Shown piece by piece: positions 2,850 to 14,380 of a stretch of 64,000 nucleotides of DNA (within the stretch, counting starts at the first letter, position 1; every line of letters starts with the position of its first letter). The DNA is from Marinobacter confluentis (GTDB taxonomy: Bacteria > Pseudomonadota > Gammaproteobacteria > Pseudomonadales > Oleiphilaceae): the NCBI RefSeq assembly GCF_004785685.1, contig NZ_SRPF01000001.1:248001-312000 (forward strand), read 5' to 3'. The notes below the pieces were generated by a model. That model was not told where the DNA came from. It ran no database searches and saw only the letters and a list, made by a program, of their open reading frames with translations. The translations under genes and the position numbers were made by a program.

Positions 2850-4595
2850 ATGGCTACCCAGCTGGATGTTCAGACACCACTGAAACTGCGCCCTGCCGAC
2901 CGGGTGATGAACCTGGTGCGGCTGGGTAGCCTGCACGCCAGCCGCCTGAGTTTTGCCCGCAGCCTGGTGCGCCAGATGGCGCGGGAAGACTGGACCGTGA
3001 CCAATGTCCGTAATGACCTGGATGATCAGGGGCACGGTGTGGTTGTCTATCGGCTGCAGACGCCCCACCACGTCTACCATGGCGTGGTGTTTTCCCAGCA
3101 TCTGGAGCCGGAGCGCCGGTCTGACCGGGTGATTGCCGAAGCCTGGGACGTCACCTTTGCTCTGGTAGAAGGCGCGGTGGAAGACAGCCTGCTGGAGCAG
3201 ATGGCCGCCAACGTGCCGCTGCAGGAAGCCGGGAGGCAGCACCCCAGATTGCTGGTGTTATCCCGTGCTAACAAAAGCCTGCGTAACTTTGATCACTTTG
3301 TGACGGCGCTTGCCACAGGTCATCAGCCGGACCCCGCCTGGCTTACCCGGGTGGGCTATCTCTATCGCACAACCGCCGTGTATGGGAACGGTAAATTTGG
3401 CATCGCAGACTACGCCCGTCTGCAGAAAAATCCTGACTTTTACCGGCCCTTTTCCGCGCAGATGTTTGCTGTTTATCTTCTGCGCCATTTTTCTATTCAG
3501 CAGGTCGAACACCTGGCCCGATGCCGTGCGCCGGGCCGGGCGGTTGGGCTTGCACCGGCTTTGCAGCGTTACCTGGGTATCGGCAATTCCACCGGCCTGG
3601 GCATGGCGCCTTTCCTGATTAACCATCCGCAGTTGATTCAGCAGTGGGTGTATTGTCGCGAACGGGCTCTGGCCTGGGCGCGGGAGCAACCACCGACAGA
3701 AAGCTCGCGGGTGCATCTGATGACCCTGCTGCGCCGGGCGCACCAGCATTTTGTCGAGACCGTCACCGAGGATAACGAGCAGACACGGCGCAACCAGGCG
3801 ACTGTGGCCTCCATCGACGCCATCATCCGTTGGCTGGATGGCATGCAGGCCACGCCGGACCTGTGGGATGAACTGCTGGACTGGGCCGACGACAACTGCT
3901 CGCTGGAAGGCCAGGAACTGATCAACACGCTGTTGATTGAGCTCTACCCGGACCTGATTGATGCCGCCGAAGACGAGCTTGGCTGCGAGGAGATACTGGA
4001 GCTGCAGCCGGAAATGCGGGCAGTCGCGCTCAAGCAGTTGATCGAAACCCGATTTGCCTGGGCACTGGAATACGACCCCAAGAATCCCGACCACAAGTAC
4101 TGGTTCTGGTATCGCTCGGTTGAAAAAGAGGAGCCCCGGCTGGGTGTACGTGCCGAGGAACCGGGGGCAGAGAAAGAATTGCCGCTGGGCATAGGGCCGC
4201 GAATTCATCGCACTTACCAACTGCTGGATGCCTTTCTGGATCGCAGCCCCCGGGGTTCGGTGGTGGAATTCCTGATGGCGCACCCCGGGCAGAAGGAATG
4301 CGTGCGACGCATCCAGACCATGGGTGCGACGTCTTATGGTGAGATTCAGGCCAACCTCTGGCACCGGGACATGAAACCCATGCACCTGTTGCGCACCAAG
4401 CTGTCGTTTTTTGGCGCCAGCCGGTTTGACCCCAAGTCAGACCGCTGGGTGCGGGTGACTCTGTTTCAGGGGGCACCCCTGTTCTGCGAGCTGTTCAGCG
4501 ACCACGGCACTGACAAGGCGCGGCTGGCGGAACTGGATGACTGGAGCTTCCCGGTGGAGCCGGATGCGGGCTCTCTGACTTCAGGCGTCCTATGA
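2850..4595 (+). CDS. Conserved protein of unknown function, 581 aa, in transporter operon
   Basis: I do not recognise a domain. The protein is soluble in appearance, with no signal peptide or membrane segment. Distinctive stretches are VYGNGKFGIADY (about 174-185), GIGNSTGLGMAPFLINHP (about 246-263), a tryptophan-rich DHKYWFWYRSVEKEEPRLG-like segment near 412-430 and an N-terminal HGVVVYRLQTPHHVYHG segment. The reading frame has strong coding character and the gene begins 3 bases after the BCCT stop and overlaps the DUF3726 gene by 4 bases (ATGA), so translation is likely coupled. A catabolic enzyme, or a factor needed for one, is the simplest guess from context. The Gly-rich motif near 246 could be a ligand-binding loop, but that is only a suggestion. 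Confidence 0.85.
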   Translation: MATQLDVQTPLKLRPADRVMNLVRLGSLHASRLSFARSLVRQMAREDWTVTNVRNDLDDQGHGVVVYRLQTPHHVYHGVVFSQHLEPERRSDRVIAEAWDVTFALVEGAVEDSLLEQMAANVPLQEAGRQHPRLLVLSRANKSLRNFDHFVTALATGHQPDPAWLTRVGYLYRTTAVYGNGKFGIADYARLQKNPDFYRPFSAQMFAVYLLRHFSIQQVEHLARCRAPGRAVGLAPALQRYLGIGNSTGLGMAPFLINHPQLIQQWVYCRERALAWAREQPPTESSRVHLMTLLRRAHQHFVETVTEDNEQTRRNQATVASIDAIIRWLDGMQATPDLWDELLDWADDNCSLEGQELINTLLIELYPDLIDAAEDELGCEEILELQPEMRAVALKQLIETRFAWALEYDPKNPDHKYWFWYRSVEKEEPRLGVRAEEPGAEKELPLGIGPRIHRTYQLLDAFLDRSPRGSVVEFLMAHPGQKECVRRIQTMGATSYGEIQANLWHRDMKPMHLLRTKLSFFGASRFDPKSDRWVRVTLFQGAPLFCELFSDHGTDKARLAELDDWSFPVEPDAGSLTSGVL

Positions 4596-5359
4596 AAGTA
4601 TCGTTCAATGAACTGCAGGGCATGGGCCGCAAGGCCTTTATCGGGATTGGCTTTGCCGAGGGTGATGCCATTGATGCCGCGGAAATGGTCGCCTGGATGG
4701 AAGCTCATGGCCTGGGGGGTGTGGCGGCCCTGAAAAAAGGCCTGGACTACCTGCTGACCGAAGACCCGTCTGAAACCCCGACTCTGGTATACCAGGATGC
4801 TGATTTCAGCGTGCTGGACGCCCACAACCACAGCATTCTGGGCAACGCCAGCCTGGCAGTGGAACTGGGCTATGCCCGGGCCCGGGCACGGGGCCTGTCG
4901 ATCACCAAGATCCGCCGCTGCCATAACCGGGTGCTGGTGATTGGCTATCTGTCCCGGCTTGCGCGCCGGGGCATGAATGTGACCGCCTTCTGGCGTAACT
5001 CCCACGAACCATTGATAGAGCAGGTGGTTGGCTTCAAGGCCGGTCATCCGGTGCCGGAAATCTGCGTGTACAGCCTGGAAGACGTGCCCGATGACACGGA
5101 AAAGAACGACGGCATCACCCTGATCATGGCTAACCATGTGGACCTGCTGCCCAGCCTGCGCTCGGATTACGACCTGACCAACCTGATGCGCCAGACCGAG
5201 GAAGACCTGGAACGGCAGCGTGACCAGGCCCTGGTGGAAGGTCTGGAAGTGGACGATCAGCTCTGGAAAACCCTTAAAACCCTGGCTGACCGGCTTCTGG
5301 TTGAGGCCTCTGAGGCCTCACGCAGTGGCGCCGGGGCTGGCAAAAGTGATAACGACTGA
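4592..5359 (+). CDS. DUF3726 family protein
   Basis: The 255-residue protein starts MKVSFNELQGMGRKAFIG and continues AAEMVAWMEAHGLGG, which matches my memory of DUF3726, a family of unknown biochemical function. No signal peptide or membrane span is seen. Its ATG overlaps the stop of the 581-residue gene. The N-terminal half (start to about residue 60) looks helical and resembles the small regulatory or lid regions that go with malate/lactate-type oxidoreductases, but this is a weak impression. It belongs with the upstream gene and the RidA gene 15 bases downstream; the three probably act on one pathway. Confidence 0.8.
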   Translation: MKVSFNELQGMGRKAFIGIGFAEGDAIDAAEMVAWMEAHGLGGVAALKKGLDYLLTEDPSETPTLVYQDADFSVLDAHNHSILGNASLAVELGYARARARGLSITKIRRCHNRVLVIGYLSRLARRGMNVTAFWRNSHEPLIEQVVGFKAGHPVPEICVYSLEDVPDDTEKNDGITLIMANHVDLLPSLRSDYDLTNLMRQTEEDLERQRDQALVEGLEVDDQLWKTLKTLADRLLVEASEASRSGAGAGKSDND

Positions 5360-5786: not shown

Positions 5787-6179
5787 TCACTGAAACTGGG
5801 TATAACACTGTTGTCGTTTCTCAGCCAGGGCTTTTGATTCTCTTGTGTCAGTAGCCAAGTCGTAGCGGTCGATCACAGCGACAAACCTGCTCATGTAATC
5901 GCACTGGTCCATTGGCGGAAGCCATTCCAGGGGGCCGCGGCCACCGCGTTGTTCGATGGCCGCGTCGCTCAGAACCATCTGATTTTTCGGGTCCTGCAAG
6001 AAGGCATTTACCCTGTCCTGGTTCCAGTCGAGCGCCCCTCTTTCCCTGACATAGTCGAGAGGTACCACCTGTGTGTTGCGGACACTGGTGCCCGAGGAGA
6101 TGACGCCGATTACAACCACCGCGCCTATCATCGCTATCAATGCGGCAGATACCACCTTGGTGACCGGTGACGTTTTCAT
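5787..6179 (-). CDS. Small membrane-anchored hypothetical protein
   Basis: The 130-residue product has one N-terminal hydrophobic segment (about residues 8-29, KVVSAALIAMIGAVVVIGVI), which could be a signal anchor, followed by a polar domain of about 100 residues. Two Cys residues (in MDQCDYMS and RQQCYTQ) near the C-terminus could form a disulfide if the domain is periplasmic. No family is recognised. The start codon overlaps the amidase stop by 4 bases (ATGA on the - strand), so it is translated with the amidase. It may be an accessory or simply a neighbour. Confidence 0.7.
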   Translation of the reverse strand: MKTSPVTKVVSAALIAMIGAVVVIGVISSGTSVRNTQVVPLDYVRERGALDWNQDRVNAFLQDPKNQMVLSDAAIEQRGGRGPLEWLPPMDQCDYMSRFVAVIDRYDLATDTRESKALAEKRQQCYTQFQ

Positions 6180-7669
6180 TCCGGAGGCTCAAACCCGGCC
6201 AACCCCTGTTTTTCCAGAAGCTCGGCGAAGCGGATGGTGGTCAGGTCCATTCCCGGCGCGCCGATTACCTGAATGTTATAGGGCAGGCCATTTTTTGTCC
6301 GGCCAATGGGCACTGATGTGGCCGGCAGGCCCAGCAGTGTGGCCAGGGCAATCCAGCAGAACTGGTCCATGTAGGCGCGGGGTTTGTCGGCGACGGTGAT
6401 GGTGCGCTTGAACACAGGCTTGCTGTGATCATGGGGAATGGCAGCGGTCGGGGTGATGGGGGTCAGCAGCACATCGAACTCTTCAAACAGCTCGGTGATC
6501 TGCTTGCGCATTTTCTCCCGGGTTTCGTTCCAGGGCATCCATTCGTAGACCGGCTGGTTGGCGCCGCGCCCGTATTCGCCGATGTGGGCGGTCACCGGGC
6601 CGAACAGGTGAAGCCACTTTTCCAGGCGGGCGATCCATTTCATCTGGCGGCGTTGGGCGCTGTTCAGGGAAGTGCTCAGCAGGCTGCCCAGCAGGTTGAA
6701 GTAGGGCGGCAGAATGTGGGTCAGGTTGAGCAGGTTGTGCCTGGCCTCGGAGACCAGGGCACCATGGCTTTCCAGTGTGCGAGCCAGTTGCCGGTAGCCG
6801 TCGGTCAGTTCCTGATCAATGGGGCAAAGCAGGTCAGATAGCCACAGACCGACTCTTGCCTGTTCCAGGGAGTCGAATGTCGCTGGCGCCATGGCGAGCT
6901 TCCAGCTGGTCTGTTCCCGCTCTCCCGGTCCTGCGATCACGCTCAGAAGCAGCGCCAGGTCGCCGGCGGTTCTGGCCATGGGGCCGCCTTCGGCCAGGTC
7001 GGGCTGGGATTCGGTGCCGGGCGGCCCTGGCACGTGGCCGCGGAATGACACCAGTGTGCGGGACGGCTTGTGGCCGAACACGCCACAGAAATGTGCGGGA
7101 ATGCGGATAGAGCCTGCCAGGTCACTGCCGACTTCCAGTGGCGTCATGCCAGAAGCCAGCGCCGCAGCTGCGCCACCCGATGACCCGCCGGGCGTGTGGT
7201 CCGGGTTGTAGGGGTTGCGGGTTACGCCAAACAGTTTGTTGTAACTTTGCAGGTCGGTGGCGTAGATGGGCACGTTGGTTTTGCCGATGACGATGGCGCC
7301 GGCGTCTTCCAGCCTTTTAACGACGTCGGCATGGCGTTTCGGCCGGTGATCTTTCAGGGCGGGCGCCCCGGCGGTGCAGGTCATGCCGGCCACTTCCCAG
7401 GTGTCTTTCAGGGTCAGCGGCAGGCCATGCAGCGGGCCGATCGCTTCACCCCGGGCCAAAGCCGCATCGGCTTCGCCGGCACGGGCCATTGCCTGGTCCT
7501 CGTCCAGAGTGATAACAGCATTGATCTGCGGGTTTTGCTCCCGGATTCTCGCCAGCATGGCCCGGGTCAGTTCAGTGCTGGTCAGGCTGCCGTTCTGCAG
7601 CGCAGCAACCAGTTCGGTGGCAGACTGATAGTACAACGGGGACTGCGACACACTCTGCGACACACTCAT
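6176..7669 (-). CDS. Amidase signature family hydrolase
   Basis: The 497-residue protein contains the full amidase-signature Ser-cisSer-Lys machinery: K88 in LPLTLKDTW, the PGGSSGGAAAA stretch with S163/S164, and the nucleophile S187 in GSDLAGSIRIP. These enzymes hydrolyse carboxamides, anilides or fatty-acid amides. The sequence resembles the bacterial amidases often named fatty-acid amide hydrolase-like or 6-aminohexanoate-cyclic-dimer hydrolase-like, but the substrate cannot be read from motifs. No signal peptide is present; a short MSVSQSVSQSP leader precedes the fold. GACGAGGTTTCC lies before the ATG. It is convergent with the RidA operon and followed by the small membrane protein. Confidence 0.9.
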   Translation of the reverse strand: MSVSQSVSQSPLYYQSATELVAALQNGSLTSTELTRAMLARIREQNPQINAVITLDEDQAMARAGEADAALARGEAIGPLHGLPLTLKDTWEVAGMTCTAGAPALKDHRPKRHADVVKRLEDAGAIVIGKTNVPIYATDLQSYNKLFGVTRNPYNPDHTPGGSSGGAAAALASGMTPLEVGSDLAGSIRIPAHFCGVFGHKPSRTLVSFRGHVPGPPGTESQPDLAEGGPMARTAGDLALLLSVIAGPGEREQTSWKLAMAPATFDSLEQARVGLWLSDLLCPIDQELTDGYRQLARTLESHGALVSEARHNLLNLTHILPPYFNLLGSLLSTSLNSAQRRQMKWIARLEKWLHLFGPVTAHIGEYGRGANQPVYEWMPWNETREKMRKQITELFEEFDVLLTPITPTAAIPHDHSKPVFKRTITVADKPRAYMDQFCWIALATLLGLPATSVPIGRTKNGLPYNIQVIGAPGMDLTTIRFAELLEKQGLAGFEPPE

Positions 7670-7713: not shown

Positions 7714-8718
7714 TCAGGGCAGATTCTCACGCCAGTGCTTCACCTTCACCTGGGCTTTAACGGCCTCCAGTATTTCGGTCAGCAGGTTGATCAACGCTTC
7801 GTTCTGTACGTGTTCCTCACTGCCATCCGGCTCAGGGAGGAAAACATTCACGATATCTTCAATAAACGCGTGGTTCGATGACAGCGCCAGGTCTTCAAGA
7901 ATCTGGTGAATCACGTGGGCAACAATATCGCCAACGCACTCTTCCAGGGTTTCCTGAATGGTCGGGCCGACCACCGGCAGATACTTTAACCTGGACAGCT
8001 CCAGGTTCTGCTTTAACGCGTTATCTACCCGGGTCTCCAGGTAACTGCGCAGAGCTCCCCTGTTGGGTACGTAGCCTTCTCTGGCGGCTTCTGCCACGCG
8101 CAGGGATAACCAGTCGGTCAGCATCGCCCGGCGGGGGTATAGGATGTCGTTCTGTATGCGATCAAACAATGGCGAGCCACGCCGGATTTCATCCTGTGCC
8201 CCGGACAGCACTTTGATCACAATCCTGTCGGACAGCTCTTCCAGAAACGCTTCGTAGTAGAAATTGAAGAACTGGAAGATCTTGGTCTGGGTAACATCAA
8301 TTACCTTGTACTGATGCAGGCGGTAGATGATCGATATGACCCGGAGTATCCGTAAGAACCTGAAGCTGCCCACCGGAATGCAGCCAATAATGTCGTACCA
8401 ATGTATGAAGGGATAAAAGTACCAGCGCGCGTAGACTTTGGCCTTGACCGCATAGCCCCAGCGCACAATAAATTCGGTCAGGAACACCGCGACAAACGCC
8501 AGGTCGTACACAATGAAGTTGTTGTGGATTGGCCGGTAGAACTCATTGATGGCCGGTGAAATGGCACTCAGGCCGTTCTGGACGATTTCGAACCCGTACA
8601 CCGAATCAAAAATAATAAAGGCCAGGTTGATGATCAGTAGCCCCAGCATCAGGAAATCGATCGCAAACCAGATCAGCTGGTGGCTCTTCTTCAGGTTGTC
8701 TGTGTTAATTTTAAGCAT
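7714..8718 (-). CDS. Voltage-sensor-domain membrane protein without a pore, unknown cytoplasmic domain
   Basis: The first 137 of 334 residues form a recognisable voltage-sensor domain: S1 about 15-40; S2 about 68-92 with F79, E82 and R86 in the charge-transfer pattern; S3 about 99-116 with D109; S4 about 117-137 with R120, R123, R126 and R133 spaced by threes (RFLRILRVISIIYRL). In voltage-gated channels an S5-P-S6 pore would follow. Instead there are about 195 polar, probably helical residues with no further hydrophobic segment long enough for a span. It is therefore not a pore-forming K+ or Na+ channel. It may be a stand-alone voltage sensor or proton-channel-like protein, or a sensor coupled to an unknown cytoplasmic activity. 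The C-terminal domain is unrecognised. It is transcribed away from tamA and sits 44 bases upstream of the amidase gene in the same direction. Confidence 0.8.
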   Translation of the reverse strand: MLKINTDNLKKSHQLIWFAIDFLMLGLLIINLAFIIFDSVYGFEIVQNGLSAISPAINEFYRPIHNNFIVYDLAFVAVFLTEFIVRWGYAVKAKVYARWYFYPFIHWYDIIGCIPVGSFRFLRILRVISIIYRLHQYKVIDVTQTKIFQFFNFYYEAFLEELSDRIVIKVLSGAQDEIRRGSPLFDRIQNDILYPRRAMLTDWLSLRVAEAAREGYVPNRGALRSYLETRVDNALKQNLELSRLKYLPVVGPTIQETLEECVGDIVAHVIHQILEDLALSSNHAFIEDIVNVFLPEPDGSEEHVQNEALINLLTEILEAVKAQVKVKHWRENLP

Positions 8719-8846
8719 TCAGGCGTCTGTTTTTGATGATGTTCAGTGAGATTAGCCTACCATGGATTAACTTGACCTGGTTCCGGGAAACTCCCAGTGT
8801 AATTCGACCAGACGCTTACATTTCAACGAGACCTTCAAGAAGCAGG

Positions 8847-10613
8847 ATGCGCCACCCCCGATTTTTTACACGTCGCACTTTCAGCTGTCGGGCCCTGCCC
8901 GGACTTTTAGTGCTCTTCCTGGTTGCCCCGATCTGTATGGCAAGCCAGGTGTCGGTTGAGGTTGAAGGCGACTACCCGGCACTGCAGGAAAACGCCGAGG
9001 CCTTTATCCAGGGGGTAGAGGGGCGTTCCGCCGATGGTCTGCGCCGTTACGTCAGTACCGCCAGGGAACAGATACGCAACGCCCTTAAGGCGCTGGGCTA
9101 TTATCAGCCCGAAATTGACTGGGAAATCAGCCAGCCCGACGAAGATGAAACCCCGGCACAGCTGCTGATGCGGGTAAAACCGGGCGAGCCGGTGCTGGTT
9201 CGGTCCCGCACGGTGACCATCAAGGGCCCGGCCGCGGAAGACAGTGAATTCAACCTGAACCTGCCGCCCCGGCCTGCAGAAGGCGATGTGCTGAACCACG
9301 GCCAGTACAATGCCCTGCGTGAGACCATCCGCAACACGGCCAGCCGGCTGGGGTATTTTGATGGCCAGTTCGAAACCCGAAGACTTGAAGTGAACCCGGA
9401 GGCAAGAACCGCAGACATCACCCTGATTTTTGCAAGTGGGCAGCGGTTTCGCCTCGGGGATGTGCAGTTCCGGGACGGGCACGGCTTTGATAACAGCCTT
9501 CTTGAACAGTTCGTGACCTTCGAAAAGGGCACCGAGTACCACTCGGACAAGGTTGCGAAGCTGAGCAATGATCTATCGAACAGTGGCTACTTTGCCAACG
9601 TGGATGTGGATGCTGATCCGGCGACCGCAAACGACGGCGTTATACCGGTCGATGTCACCTTGCGCACCCGTGACCCACGGTCGGTTGCCGCCGGCGTCGG
9701 CTTTTCCACGGATGTGGGGCCCCGGCTGAAGGGCAACTGGCGCGAACACTGGATCAATTCCATGGGCCACCGCCGGGGCGCGGAAACCGAGTTGTCCCAG
9801 CCGCGCCAGAACATTTCCGCCTGGTACGAGTTGCCTCTGGACCCGCCGATGACGGATTCGATCCGGCTTTCAGCGGGTTACCAGCGGGAAGACATCGAGG
9901 ACGTGGAGTCCGAGCTTTATACGCTGGGGCAGCAATGGAAGCACCAGCTGGATTCCGGCTGGATGCAAACGGCTTCCATCCGCCTGGAAGAAGAGCGATT
10001 CCGTTTTGGTGACGGCTCCGAAGACCGAAGCCGTCTGTTGTTGCCGGGTATCGGCTATTCCCGCCTTGAAGCCAATTCAGCCTTTGATCCTTCCCGGGGC
10101 TACCGCATTTCGGCGGAAGTGACCGGGGCGCACCGGGCGGTGGTGTCCGACGCCGACATTCTTCACGTGTTCCTGTTGGCAAAGGGCCTTTATACCCTGG
10201 CGGACGATCATCGGTTGCTGTCTCGCGTTCGATTGGGCGGGGTGGCGACCAACCGGTTCGAGGATGTGCCGCCATCGCTGCGTTTCTTTGCCGGCGGTGA
10301 CCAGACCGTTCGTGGTTATGGCTATGAAACCCTGTCGCCTGAGGACAGTGAAGGGGTTGGTGTGGGTGGCCGCTACCTGATGGTGGGCAGCGTGGAGTAT
10401 CAGTACGAATTCGTCGACAACTGGCGAGCGGCGGTGTTTGTGGATAAGGGCAATGCCGTCGACAATCTTTCCGATTCACTGGCAACCGGCGCAGGGGTTG
10501 GCATTCGCTGGATCAGCCCGGTTGGGCCAATACGGTTTGATATCGCCAAGGGGTTGGACCCGGAGTTCGGCGGTGAATGGCGGGTTCACTTTTCCATGGG
10601 GCCGGAGCTATGA
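8847..10613 (+). CDS. tamA: Outer-membrane assembly/transport protein TamA (Omp85 family)
   Basis: A 588-residue precursor if started at 8847. The open frame extends upstream to 8733, but the Sec signal (about residues 6-26, ending ICMAS) begins only at MRHPRFF, so the internal ATG is preferred. Three POTRA-like repeats (mature N-terminus to about residue 240) lead into a 16-strand Omp85 barrel; the lid motif VRGYGYE after FAGGDQT and the conserved C-terminal IRFDIAKGLD...WRVHFSMGPEL support this. TamA sits in the outer membrane and works with inner-membrane TamB in envelope biogenesis, either autotransporter/usher insertion or phospholipid movement. Its stop overlaps the tamB start. Confidence 0.93.
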   Translation: MRHPRFFTRRTFSCRALPGLLVLFLVAPICMASQVSVEVEGDYPALQENAEAFIQGVEGRSADGLRRYVSTAREQIRNALKALGYYQPEIDWEISQPDEDETPAQLLMRVKPGEPVLVRSRTVTIKGPAAEDSEFNLNLPPRPAEGDVLNHGQYNALRETIRNTASRLGYFDGQFETRRLEVNPEARTADITLIFASGQRFRLGDVQFRDGHGFDNSLLEQFVTFEKGTEYHSDKVAKLSNDLSNSGYFANVDVDADPATANDGVIPVDVTLRTRDPRSVAAGVGFSTDVGPRLKGNWREHWINSMGHRRGAETELSQPRQNISAWYELPLDPPMTDSIRLSAGYQREDIEDVESELYTLGQQWKHQLDSGWMQTASIRLEEERFRFGDGSEDRSRLLLPGIGYSRLEANSAFDPSRGYRISAEVTGAHRAVVSDADILHVFLLAKGLYTLADDHRLLSRVRLGGVATNRFEDVPPSLRFFAGGDQTVRGYGYETLSPEDSEGVGVGGRYLMVGSVEYQYEFVDNWRAAVFVDKGNAVDNLSDSLATGAGVGIRWISPVGPIRFDIAKGLDPEFGGEWRVHFSMGPEL

Positions 10614-13600
10614 CCGAAACCCGGAAACCAGAAACCGATACTGAAAACGAAGCACCGGTGGCGAAACCCCGGCGGCTCCGGTTCTGGCTGTTGATCGTTC
10701 TTGGGGTGCTGGTTCTGCTGCCGGTTGTGCTGATTGGCGCCATTCTGCTGGCCCTGAGATCGGAAACCGGCACTGCCTGGGTGATTGAGCAGGTACCCGG
10801 GCTTGAGGTCACCCAGGGACAGGGGTCTCTGTTGGGGCAGTGGCAGGCAGACACTCTGAACTGGCGCGGGTTTGGCGTTGGGGTTGATGTTCAGGCGCCC
10901 GTTGTCAGCTGGTCTCCCGGATGTCTGATTGAAAAGGAGCTGTGCCTCGACCGGCTGGAAGCCCGTGCCGTTGACGTAAGCCTGTTTGGTTCCGCATCAG
11001 ACGACTCGGCACCGGAGCCCATCAGTCTGCCGCAGTTGAACCTGCCATTGGCAGTGACCGTGGGTGCCGTTGATATTGGCCCGCTGACGGTGAACGACGG
11101 CGTTATCTGGGACCGGTTCCGGTTTGGGGCCAGTGGCTCCGGTGCGGACTGGTCGGTGTCCCGTCTCAGTGTCCAGCGTGATGATATGTCCCTGGATGTA
11201 TCAGGCAGGCTCGAAACCCGGGGCGACTGGCCCCTGGACCTTTCAGTGCAGGCACAGATCCCGCCCCCCGAGGGCGATCAATGGCTGCTGGACCTGAACC
11301 TGACCGGCAGCGTGGTTGAACTGCTGTTGCGTGGCACCAGCGAAGGCTACCTGAACGCCGATGTGTCAGGTCGGCTGCAACCTCTCGAACCTGCTCTTCC
11401 GGCAAGGCTGAGACTTCGTACCGCCCGCTTCACGGCGCTGAGTACCTTGCCGGAGACCCTGACCCTGCTGGACACAGAAATAAACGTGAATGGCAGCCTT
11501 GAAAACGGATTCAGGGTCGACAGTACCGGCCAGTTGCCAGGCAAAGACGGAAATATTGGCCTGGCCCTGGACGGCCTGGTAACCACCACCGGCGCCCGCG
11601 ACCTGGATCTGCGCCTGACCGGGCAGGGCACCGGCGATGCCGACACCGGCAGCGTCGCGGTGAATGGCAAGGTCAGTTGGGAAGAGGCGCTGGCCCTTGA
11701 TGCGACGGTGGCGTTGGACGCCTTTGCCTGGTTCAACCTGCTGCCTGATGTGGAGCCGCCACCGGTGGTTCTGAACAGCCTGAACGGCGAGATTGCCTAC
11801 CGGGATGGCCAGTACCAGGCCAGTCTGGAGGCCGTCGTCGATGGCCCTCAGGGCAGGGCGAATCTGGCCTCGGATATCGATGGTGACCTGGAATCTGTGA
11901 AGCTTTCTCAACTAAGGGTAGAAACGGGCGCGGGTTTCCTGAATGGCCAGGCGGACATTAGATTTGCGGGCCCGGTAACCTGGCAGACAAGCCTGGCGCT
12001 GAGCGAATTCAATCCCGGCTACTGGGTACCCGCCCTGGAGGCAAGCCTGAATGGCGATGTGACCAGCGAAGGCCGGATACCACCCGAAGGAAACCCGGAA
12101 ATCCAGGCAGCCTGGGACCTGACCGGAAACTGGCGGGCCAGTGAAGCCAATATACGCGGCAGCCTGAACCAGGCCGGCGATACCTTGGTTCTGTCGGATC
12201 TGGAATTGCGGGTTGATGAGAACCGGATTGCCGGCCAGGGGCAGTGGGGTCCGGAACTGGCGGGTGATTTCCAGCTGAATCTGCCACAACCTCAGCTTCT
12301 GCTGCCGCAGCTTGAGGGCTCACTTACCGGCCAGGTGACGGCCAGCGGAACCCCCGATGACCCCAGGGCATCGGTTTCCGTGTCTGGCAGCGATCTGGCC
12401 TGGGACGATCAGGTAGCGGTCGGCCAGGTTGATCTGTCCGCAAGCCTGACTGAGGGCCAGACCCTGGCAGGCGACCTGAAAGCCTCATCCCTGGAGGCAG
12501 CCGGGCAGGCGCTTGAAAGCCTGTCCCTGAGCCTGGCAGGCACCCGGGATGACCATCGCCTGAGTATCGGTGCAAGCCATTCCGAAGCAGACCTGCTGTT
12601 CCGGTTTGCCGGCGGCTTCGGCGAAGCCTGGACGGCCTGGCAGGGACAGCTGGCCGCGGGCGAGATTGATGTGACCAGCCAGGATCAGTTCTGGCGGCTG
12701 AACCGGCCTGCGGACCTGGCTTACAGCGAGGCCGGAAAGCTGACCTTTGGCCAACACTGCTGGACCTGGGAACAGGCTTCGGTATGCGCCGGCCAGCAGA
12801 CCCTGCTTCCGGACCCGGCGCTGGATTATCAGATACGGAACTTCCCCACGACCGCATTGGCGCCGCTGATGCCTGAAGCCCTTCGCTGGGACACCCTGCT
12901 GGATGCCGACCTGACCTTCAGAACAGCCGATTCAGGCCCGGAAGGCAGCCTGTCTGTGGATGCCGGCGACGGCGAGTTTTCCGTTCTGAACGACGATGAG
13001 TGGGAGGTATTTCAATACAACGCGCTGACCACACAGGTTGAGCTGCTGCCGGACCGGGCCAATCTGGTGTTCAACCTCCAGGGCCCGCGCCTGGGCACTC
13101 TGTCTGCGGATGTCAGCGTTGACCCGCAATCGGAGGCTCGAAACCTGGATGGCAGTTTCCGGATTTCTGAGCTGGATATTGCCCTGGCGGCGGTATTTGC
13201 CCGGCTTGAAGAGGTCAAAGGCCAGCTTAATGGCGAGGGTCAGATTTCCGGCCCACTGATGAAACCGGCGGTGAACGGTGAGATTGCCCTGACCGGCGGT
13301 GAGATTACCGATCCTTCGCTGCCCTTGCCACTGCAGGACATGGTCGTGAGCGTGACGCTCAAGGGTTACCAGGCGGACCTTTCCGGGCGCTGGAAAAGTA
13401 ATGAACGGGGCACCGGCGCCCTGGACGGTGAGGCAAGCTGGGAATCAGAACCGCAGGTGGACCTGCGCCTGACCGGCAAACGGCTGCCATTCCTGTATGA
13501 CCCCTACGCGCAGATCGAGATTGAGCCGGATCTGAGGATCGCCTTTGGTCCAGAGGGGTTGAGTATCAGTGGTCAGCTTGATGTGCCCCGGGGTGAGATC

Positions 13601-14380
13601 GAGATCACCCAGCTGCCAGCGCAGGCGGTATCGGTGTCCGATGACGAGGTGATCGTGGGCGCCGAACAGGATGAGTCCCAGCCGCTGGCTCTGAATATGG
13701 ACGTCAAGGTTGTGGTGGGTGAGGACCGGGTGACATTCAACGGTTTCGAGGTGATCGGCAATCTCGATGGCACCCTGCGGATTGGCAACAACATGGATAC
13801 CCGGGGTTCCCTCCGGCTGCAGGATGGTCGATATGAGGCGTACGGCCAAGAACTGGAGCTCAGGCGCGCCCGTCTGCTGTTCACCGGGCCCCTGGCGCAG
13901 CCCTATCTGGATATCGAGGCGATTCGCCGGGTGGATACAGTAGTGGCCGGTATCCGCCTGACGGGCCCGATATCCGCGCCCCAGACAGAGGTGTTTTCAG
14001 AACCGAGCATGCCCCAGACCGATGCGCTGTCCTACCTGGTTCTGGGCCGCGCACCGGGTGGCCCGAGCCAGGGCGGTGAAAGTGCGATGCGAAATGCGGC
14101 GATTTCCCTGGGCCTGAACCAGGCGGCGGGAGTGACCCGGGGAGTGGGTGAGGAACTGGGCATCCGTGAGCTGACCCTTGAGGCCGAGGGCTCCGGTGAC
14201 GAAGCTGCCGTGGTCGCCAGCGGCTATCTGACCGAGGACCTGAGCCTGCGTTACGGCGTGGGTATTTTCGAGCCCATTACTACGGTAGCCCTGCGATATG
14301 ACCTGGGCCGGTATTTCTATCTTGAGGCCGCCAGCGGGCTGGCGGCATCGCTGGATATTTTCTACACCCGGGATTTCTAG
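10610..14380 (+). CDS. tamB: Translocation/lipid-transport bridge protein TamB (AsmA-like, DUF490)
   Basis: A 1256-residue protein. The start at 10610 (ATGA overlap with the tamA stop) is chosen over an in-frame ATG at 10577 that lies inside tamA. One inner-membrane anchor (about residues 26-49, FWLLIVLGVLVLLPVVLIGAIL) is followed by more than 1,100 residues of repetitive beta-strand sequence, expected to form a long hydrophobic groove across the periplasm, and the conserved TamB/DUF490 C-terminus with SYLVLGR and a terminal aromatic (YTRDF) for contact with TamA. TamB-type proteins are linked to glycerophospholipid transport to the outer membrane. A terminator-like hairpin follows the stop. 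Confidence 0.94.
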   Translation: MTETRKPETDTENEAPVAKPRRLRFWLLIVLGVLVLLPVVLIGAILLALRSETGTAWVIEQVPGLEVTQGQGSLLGQWQADTLNWRGFGVGVDVQAPVVSWSPGCLIEKELCLDRLEARAVDVSLFGSASDDSAPEPISLPQLNLPLAVTVGAVDIGPLTVNDGVIWDRFRFGASGSGADWSVSRLSVQRDDMSLDVSGRLETRGDWPLDLSVQAQIPPPEGDQWLLDLNLTGSVVELLLRGTSEGYLNADVSGRLQPLEPALPARLRLRTARFTALSTLPETLTLLDTEINVNGSLENGFRVDSTGQLPGKDGNIGLALDGLVTTTGARDLDLRLTGQGTGDADTGSVAVNGKVSWEEALALDATVALDAFAWFNLLPDVEPPPVVLNSLNGEIAYRDGQYQASLEAVVDGPQGRANLASDIDGDLESVKLSQLRVETGAGFLNGQADIRFAGPVTWQTSLALSEFNPGYWVPALEASLNGDVTSEGRIPPEGNPEIQAAWDLTGNWRASEANIRGSLNQAGDTLVLSDLELRVDENRIAGQGQWGPELAGDFQLNLPQPQLLLPQLEGSLTGQVTASGTPDDPRASVSVSGSDLAWDDQVAVGQVDLSASLTEGQTLAGDLKASSLEAAGQALESLSLSLAGTRDDHRLSIGASHSEADLLFRFAGGFGEAWTAWQGQLAAGEIDVTSQDQFWRLNRPADLAYSEAGKLTFGQHCWTWEQASVCAGQQTLLPDPALDYQIRNFPTTALAPLMPEALRWDTLLDADLTFRTADSGPEGSLSVDAGDGEFSVLNDDEWEVFQYNALTTQVELLPDRANLVFNLQGPRLGTLSADVSVDPQSEARNLDGSFRISELDIALAAVFARLEEVKGQLNGEGQISGPLMKPAVNGEIALTGGEITDPSLPLPLQDMVVSVTLKGYQADLSGRWKSNERGTGALDGEASWESEPQVDLRLTGKRLPFLYDPYAQIEIEPDLRIAFGPEGLSISGQLDVPRGEIEITQLPAQAVSVSDDEVIVGAEQDESQPLALNMDVKVVVGEDRVTFNGFEVIGNLDGTLRIGNNMDTRGSLRLQDGRYEAYGQELELRRARLLFTGPLAQPYLDIEAIRRVDTVVAGIRLTGPISAPQTEVFSEPSMPQTDALSYLVLGRAPGGPSQGGESAMRNAAISLGLNQAAGVTRGVGEELGIRELTLEAEGSGDEAAVVASGYLTEDLSLRYGVGIFEPITTVALRYDLGRYFYLEAASGLAASLDIFYTRDF

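Follow-up and report, generated by a model that had tools for sequence, protein, structure and literature searches.

Voltage-gated cation channels (Ion_trans, PF00520) combine a voltage-sensor domain (VSD), marked by a Phe, Glu and Arg in S2, an Asp in S3 and an arginine at every third residue of S4, with the S5-P-S6 segment. Hv1 has a VSD without a pore domain, and the voltage-sensitive phosphatase (Ci-VSP type) has its VSD joined to a cytoplasmic domain, with HCx5R as the defining catalytic motif. The human protein TMEM266 is described as a VSD of S1-S4 only in which S4 is prolonged into a helix (PMC13095418); its likeness to the family reported here is one of description and not of sequence comparison. 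As stated in a 2023 review, all prokaryotic VSDs then known come with a pore, as verified by database searches, and Hv1 was not found in prokaryotes (PMC10377628). Among the matches listed for open-licence PubMed Central, a collection that mostly does not cover subscription papers, no paper described a pore-less VSD from bacteria.

The window analysed here, a stretch of 64,000 nucleotides from Marinobacter confluentis, contains a gene whose product has the same S2, S3 and S4 pattern as the voltage-gated cation channels, whereas about 195 other residues take the place of their S5-P-S6 (Table 1). The ORF was present where an earlier note on this DNA had placed it, on the minus strand according to the ORF list, and its stop codon occupies positions 7714-7716. 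F79, E82, R86, D109, R120, R123, R126 and R133 were all at the positions claimed for them, and the proposed architecture, a VSD of S1-S4 with a cytoplasmic domain of no known family and without a pore, is kept across many genera.

Table 1. Features of the voltage-sensor gene and of its neighbours in the window
Feature	Position	Strand	Basis or remark
Whole gene, pore-less voltage-sensor protein, 334 aa	7717..8718	minus	ORF call and orthologues
S1 helix, residues 15-42, polar N31 and D38 inside	8593..8676	minus	hydropathy
S2 helix, residues 68-92, charge-transfer centre F79/E82/R86	8443..8517	minus	conservation, profile, hydropathy
S3 segment (short), residues 101-117, carries D109	8368..8418	minus	conservation, profile
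S4 helix, residues 118-136, R120/R123/R126/R133	8311..8367	minus	conservation, profile
Amphipathic post-S4 helix, residues 146-182, EExSDR motif; proposed transducer	8173..8283	minus	conservation, helical moment, weak model
C-terminal all-helical domain, presumably cytoplasmic, residues 183-334	7717..8172	minus	conservation, hydropathy, prediction
Amidase gene (PF01425), downstream	6176..7669	minus	44-nt gap, same strand
Divergent tamA (Omp85/POTRA)	8733..10613	plus	ORF start TTG, true start may be downstream
tamB (PF04357)	10577..14380	plus	Pfam

Relatives were collected as 180 matches in 179 loci. Six matches shorter than 290 aa were dropped first (the second copy in L138, and L148, L178, L163, L164 and L165), after which sequences at least 72% identical to a kept one were removed. 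The 52 non-redundant relatives obtained are full-length by selection, because the shorter matches had been taken out beforehand; an alignment (A1) was made from 45 of them, leaving out seven with a late ATG start or X. Identity among the 52 reaches down to about 21%, and 12 residues are invariant in all of them: F75, W87, W99, P103, W107, Y108, P115, R123, R126, E160, P248 and G251. Position 79 in S2 is F in 34 relatives, Y in 9, L in 7 and W in 2, position 82 is acidic in all (E 40, D 12) and position 86 is R in 39, G in 12 and Q in one. The S3 position 109 is also acidic throughout (D 43, E 9). R123 and R126 of S4 occur in 52/52 relatives each, R120 in 51/52 (one H), and position 133 is R in 51 and K in one. 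The polar S1 residues D38 and N31 are found in 49/52 and 45/52 relatives, respectively, and six relatives from family f35 (L158, L159, L160, L162, L174 and L176) have Asp31. Gly86 defines a subgroup of 12 relatives (for example L149, L150, L154, L167 and L172); with Gly86 in these and Asp82 in 12/52, the transfer centre therefore has a changed inner charge there. Comparison of the whole gene with six Marinobacter orthologues gave a dN/dS of about 0.08-0.14, a rough figure because synonymous sites are close to saturated, with both halves constrained; purifying selection appears to be strong on both halves of the gene.

The VSD columns of the family (51 sequences) were compared by hhalign with a profile of 30 channel ORFs picked by Pfam Ion_trans. 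This alignment reached a probability of 94, a P of 1.4e-7 and a score of 52.0, with F79/E82/R86 and D109 in register, and the controls stayed below that score (at most 33.4 in 60 local column shuffles, and 21.6 for the reversed profile). The window protein alone was without a match to Ion_trans (PF00520) even at E 10, and 18/45 relatives matched it at E <= 1, the best at 7.2e-5. For the window protein, the Pfam search returned only MMS19_C at E 0.11, the NCBIfam search no match and a sequence search of solved structures one unrelated chain at E 0.11. A full-length AlphaFold model, built from 50 sequences (the window protein and 49 Marinobacter loci), had a low mean pLDDT of 51, with residues 1-150 at about 53-78. 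The VIA fold comparison of this weak model gave, among the 50 matches listed, mostly voltage-gated or related six-helix channels, with Z up to 7.8, all below 8 and middling by the tool's own scale; one example is 8zyn_A (hERG; Z 7.7, 105 aligned, 4.5 A, model residues 17-153). A Foldseek search with the same low-confidence model returned nothing at E <= 0.001. As no Foldseek E fell below 0.001 and no VIA Z reached 8, the structure matches are regarded as supporting only. Family conservation, hydropathy and the profile comparison confirmed, at the sequence level, the VSD of four membrane segments suggested in the earlier note, with its S2 F-E-R centre, S3 acid and S4 arginine ladder, and S1-S4 are assigned by homology to a VSD in the inner membrane.

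The same note had stated that S5-P-S6 is missing, and this was borne out when hidden pore-like helices were looked for by hydropathy and found in 0/52 relatives. The peak 19-residue hydropathy after S4 was below 1.6 in 52/52 relatives, the top value being 1.49; the same measure was at least 2.17 in 28/28 channel ORFs, namely those of 31 in which the S4 pattern was found. The family-average 19-residue hydropathy does not exceed 0.6 past residue 138, with a maximum of 1.2 for the window protein itself, and the K-type and Nav-type filter patterns tried were found in 0/52 relatives. As judged from its sequences, the family is not one of voltage-gated ion channels, having neither S5-P-S6 nor a selectivity filter of the types tried.

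In place of the S4-S5 linker and S5 of a channel, the protein has the post-S4 helix, which the weak AlphaFold model draws as a helix at residues 146-179. The EExSDR motif (E160 in 52 relatives, E161 in 49, S163 in 49, D164 in 50 and R165 in 50) is, apart from the VSD, the most strongly conserved block and lies directly after S4, on or beside the most amphipathic stretch, with the highest family-average helical moment in the sequence windows at 163-182. Further towards the C-terminus, W329 is kept in 50/52 relatives next to the invariant P248 and G251 of the C-terminal domain. Modelled alone, this part was all-helical at low confidence (pLDDT 51). Searches of Pfam and NCBIfam gave no family for it, and the weak matches in relatives were scattered. 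The proteins constitute a conserved bacterial family of pore-less VSDs with a C-terminal domain outside all families searched. A sequence search of the PDB with the family profile returned helical-repeat and other unrelated chains (best TEL2, E 0.0092). DUF445 (PF04286), an idea that came from weak matches in 3/45 relatives, had an hhalign probability of 3 and a score of 24.1, which exceeds the best of 30 column shuffles (18.7) but not the control with a reversed profile (28.4), and was dropped for the latter reason. Other weak Pfam matches among the families listed (MMS19_C 3/45, TetR_C_11 3/45 and FerA 2/45) were scattered and taken as chance.

Some more distant sequences share parts of this architecture. 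The short cousins L190:1267-2049 and L164:4915-5691 (minus), of 261 and 259 aa and from families f71 and f35, likewise have a pore-less VSD and a shared C-terminal stretch (P 3.7e-15 for the full profile and 6e-6 for the C-terminal part alone versus the family); they differ in a much shorter C-terminal domain. With L190 as query, 17/299 genomes matched, and 15 of those 17 ORFs had a K-channel filter; one of the others was the cousin L164/L256 itself and one was L267. The latter, a 242-aa frame with a voltage sensor and later hydrophobic segments but no filter motif, is possibly a degenerate channel. A 200-aa frame at L163:5054-5653 (minus) carries the C-terminal domain only, and the window protein matches no VSD ORF in that locus; the domain may therefore act without a VSD, or the gene has decayed.

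The conserved residues make it rather likely that S4 moves with membrane voltage. A change in membrane potential would then move S4 so that its three arginines pass the F79/E82/D109 centre, and since S4 continues into a conserved amphipathic helix in place of S5, its movement would shift the EExSDR helix at the inner membrane face. Through this shift, the C-terminal helical domain may in turn change its shape, its oligomeric state or its binding to partners or lipids. Such control of the C-terminal domain by S4 fits the kept gating charges and is put at roughly an even chance; the reading as a whole, a non-channel voltage sensor acting as a voltage-controlled regulator through the post-S4 helix, is one that we hold with evenly balanced confidence. 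Speaking against this reading are L or W at position 79 in 9/52 relatives and an S4 with only three regularly spaced arginines, the latter a feature that would also suit a static membrane anchor or scaffold, in which the VSD fold holds the C-terminal domain and senses no voltage. The loss of R86 in 13/52 relatives and the existence of a C-terminal-only relative point the same way, but even strongly divergent sequences keep R120/R123/R126 and the acidic partners of these arginines almost without exception, and an anchor would not obviously need them. This explanation is regarded as unlikely. An auxiliary subunit that provides voltage sensing for a pore or transport protein distinct from it is possible in principle and is considered improbable: no channel family occurred among the immediate neighbours listed (downstream, 25 of 30 families), and the transporter family MFS_1 was seen once in 36 upstream and once in 38 downstream ORFs (for the latter, among the families listed).

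The VSD itself could also be a voltage-gated pathway for protons or another ion, as in Hv1, with a C-terminal domain that only oligomerises or regulates. The layout without a pore and the conserved charge-transfer centre are shared with Hv1, and Asp31 is present in 6/52 relatives, all from f35. Against this, the Hv1 motif RxWRxxR is absent from S4 in all 52 relatives, its single match among them (L155) falling after S4. Moreover, where Hv1 has an Asp in S1, 45/52 relatives including the window protein have N31; this is the residue that we take to correspond to human Hv1 D112, and presumably the S1 site that sets proton selectivity in Hv1. The C-terminal domain of Hv1 is also smaller, and the conserved one found here exceeds the size that a coiled coil would need. 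Ion conduction by the VSD is given a low probability, and on the basis of S4 and of N31 at the presumed Asp site, membership of the family as a bacterial Hv1 counterpart, which the earlier note had considered, was not supported. The other counterpart considered there, the voltage-sensitive phosphatase, has the same layout of a VSD joined to a cytoplasmic domain; membership was not supported here either, with HCx5R in 0/52 relatives, a C-terminal domain predicted to be all-helical, unlike that of the phosphatase, and no phosphatase family for the window protein in Pfam.

The gene was detected in 36/37 genomes of the Marinobacter sample, the window's own counted in; same-genus genomes without it are G033 (62% complete) within the 37 and G179 outside them. 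At the level of the order it was present in 96/390 genomes and 35/142 genera, counts in which G134 is represented by a short cousin and G068 by an ORF with the C-terminal domain only. The class sample contained it in 11/369 genomes, with six near full-length and two partial matches (G443 and G549) outside the order. From the phylum sample 21/398 genomes matched, all 21 of them Gammaproteobacteria, and no relative outside this class was found among the 398; the match in G1073 covers 74 positions within a 1227-aa frame (E 3.5e-5). Second matches in G071 and G208 are other ORFs; that in G071 (L165) is a pore-bearing channel. A collection of named genomes yielded 102 relatives, of which 80 were kept, all labelled Marinobacter except L042, which is labelled as a Rhodopirellula metagenome bin. 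Acinetobacter baumannii (six records) and Halomonas (one record) contributed further relatives. Of the 348 residues of the A. baumannii protein (L273:5929-6975), 18-340 match the family (E 9e-99); two records give this protein the name preprotein translocase subunit SecA. This label is misleading: no SecA family was obtained for the window protein in Pfam or NCBIfam, and for 45 relatives none was found among 25 of 51 families listed or among all 16 of a second search. Viral contigs gave 48 pattern matches and 0 relatives. In genome G004, of the same genus, the gene occurs twice: a shorter second copy, which matches residues 3-214, lies some 5 kb away from the complete one (L138:4060-4885 and 10135-11302).

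The gene neighbourhood was examined in the same loci, with flank counts for Marinobacter based on the 76 and 78 of 80 loci that had enough flank. The amidase gene is downstream on the same strand in 53/78 Marinobacter loci, and also in some loci of another genus and family, and may possibly be co-transcribed with the voltage-sensor gene. The tamA neighbourhood to which the earlier note had pointed held within the genus, where tamA is divergent upstream within 5 kb in 76/76 loci and within 500 nt in 56. It is not family-wide, because a scan of more distant loci with the TamA of the window found no tamA beside the voltage-sensor gene in any of them. Of the neighbouring ORFs, called crudely as the longest ATG ORFs, 36 out of 47 on the upstream side and 38 out of 45 on the downstream side were compared with Pfam. 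The context is different outside Marinobacter: the 36 upstream ORFs included 8 for acyltransferase, 6 for Exo_endo_phos and 5 for 4HBT thioesterase, and MinC was found in 9/45 downstream ORFs, all nine from family f35. One A. baumannii record shows the order acyltransferase - voltage-sensor gene - minC - minD - minE. MinD localisation is dependent on membrane potential, according to one report (PMC4829611). The immediate neighbours differ between clades, so that no fixed partner is shown, and as no partner is common to all clades, the neighbourhood gives no more than a hint of a role in the envelope, lipids or division. Given that several clades have lipid/envelope genes as neighbours and one family has minCDE, the output of the voltage-controlled regulator would probably, at low confidence, be a cell-envelope or division process.

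The existence of this pore-less family contradicts the statement on prokaryotic VSDs in the 2023 review (PMC10377628). Rather tentatively, the protein could be the first known prokaryotic non-channel voltage sensor, converting membrane potential into a signal of a cytoplasmic domain that acts on the envelope, or on division placement where it is encoded beside minCDE (f35, Acinetobacter). It may thus let bacteria act on their own membrane voltage. If voltage is sensed, the protein would explain directly, in molecular terms, how bacteria could read membrane potential without ion passage, and its simple, conserved form would make it a tractable model for a voltage sensor driving a non-pore output. 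Elsewhere in the window, a 581-aa ORF without a Pfam match at E 0.001 (window:2850-4595) adjoins a DUF3726/Ldh_2-like ORF (4592-5359).
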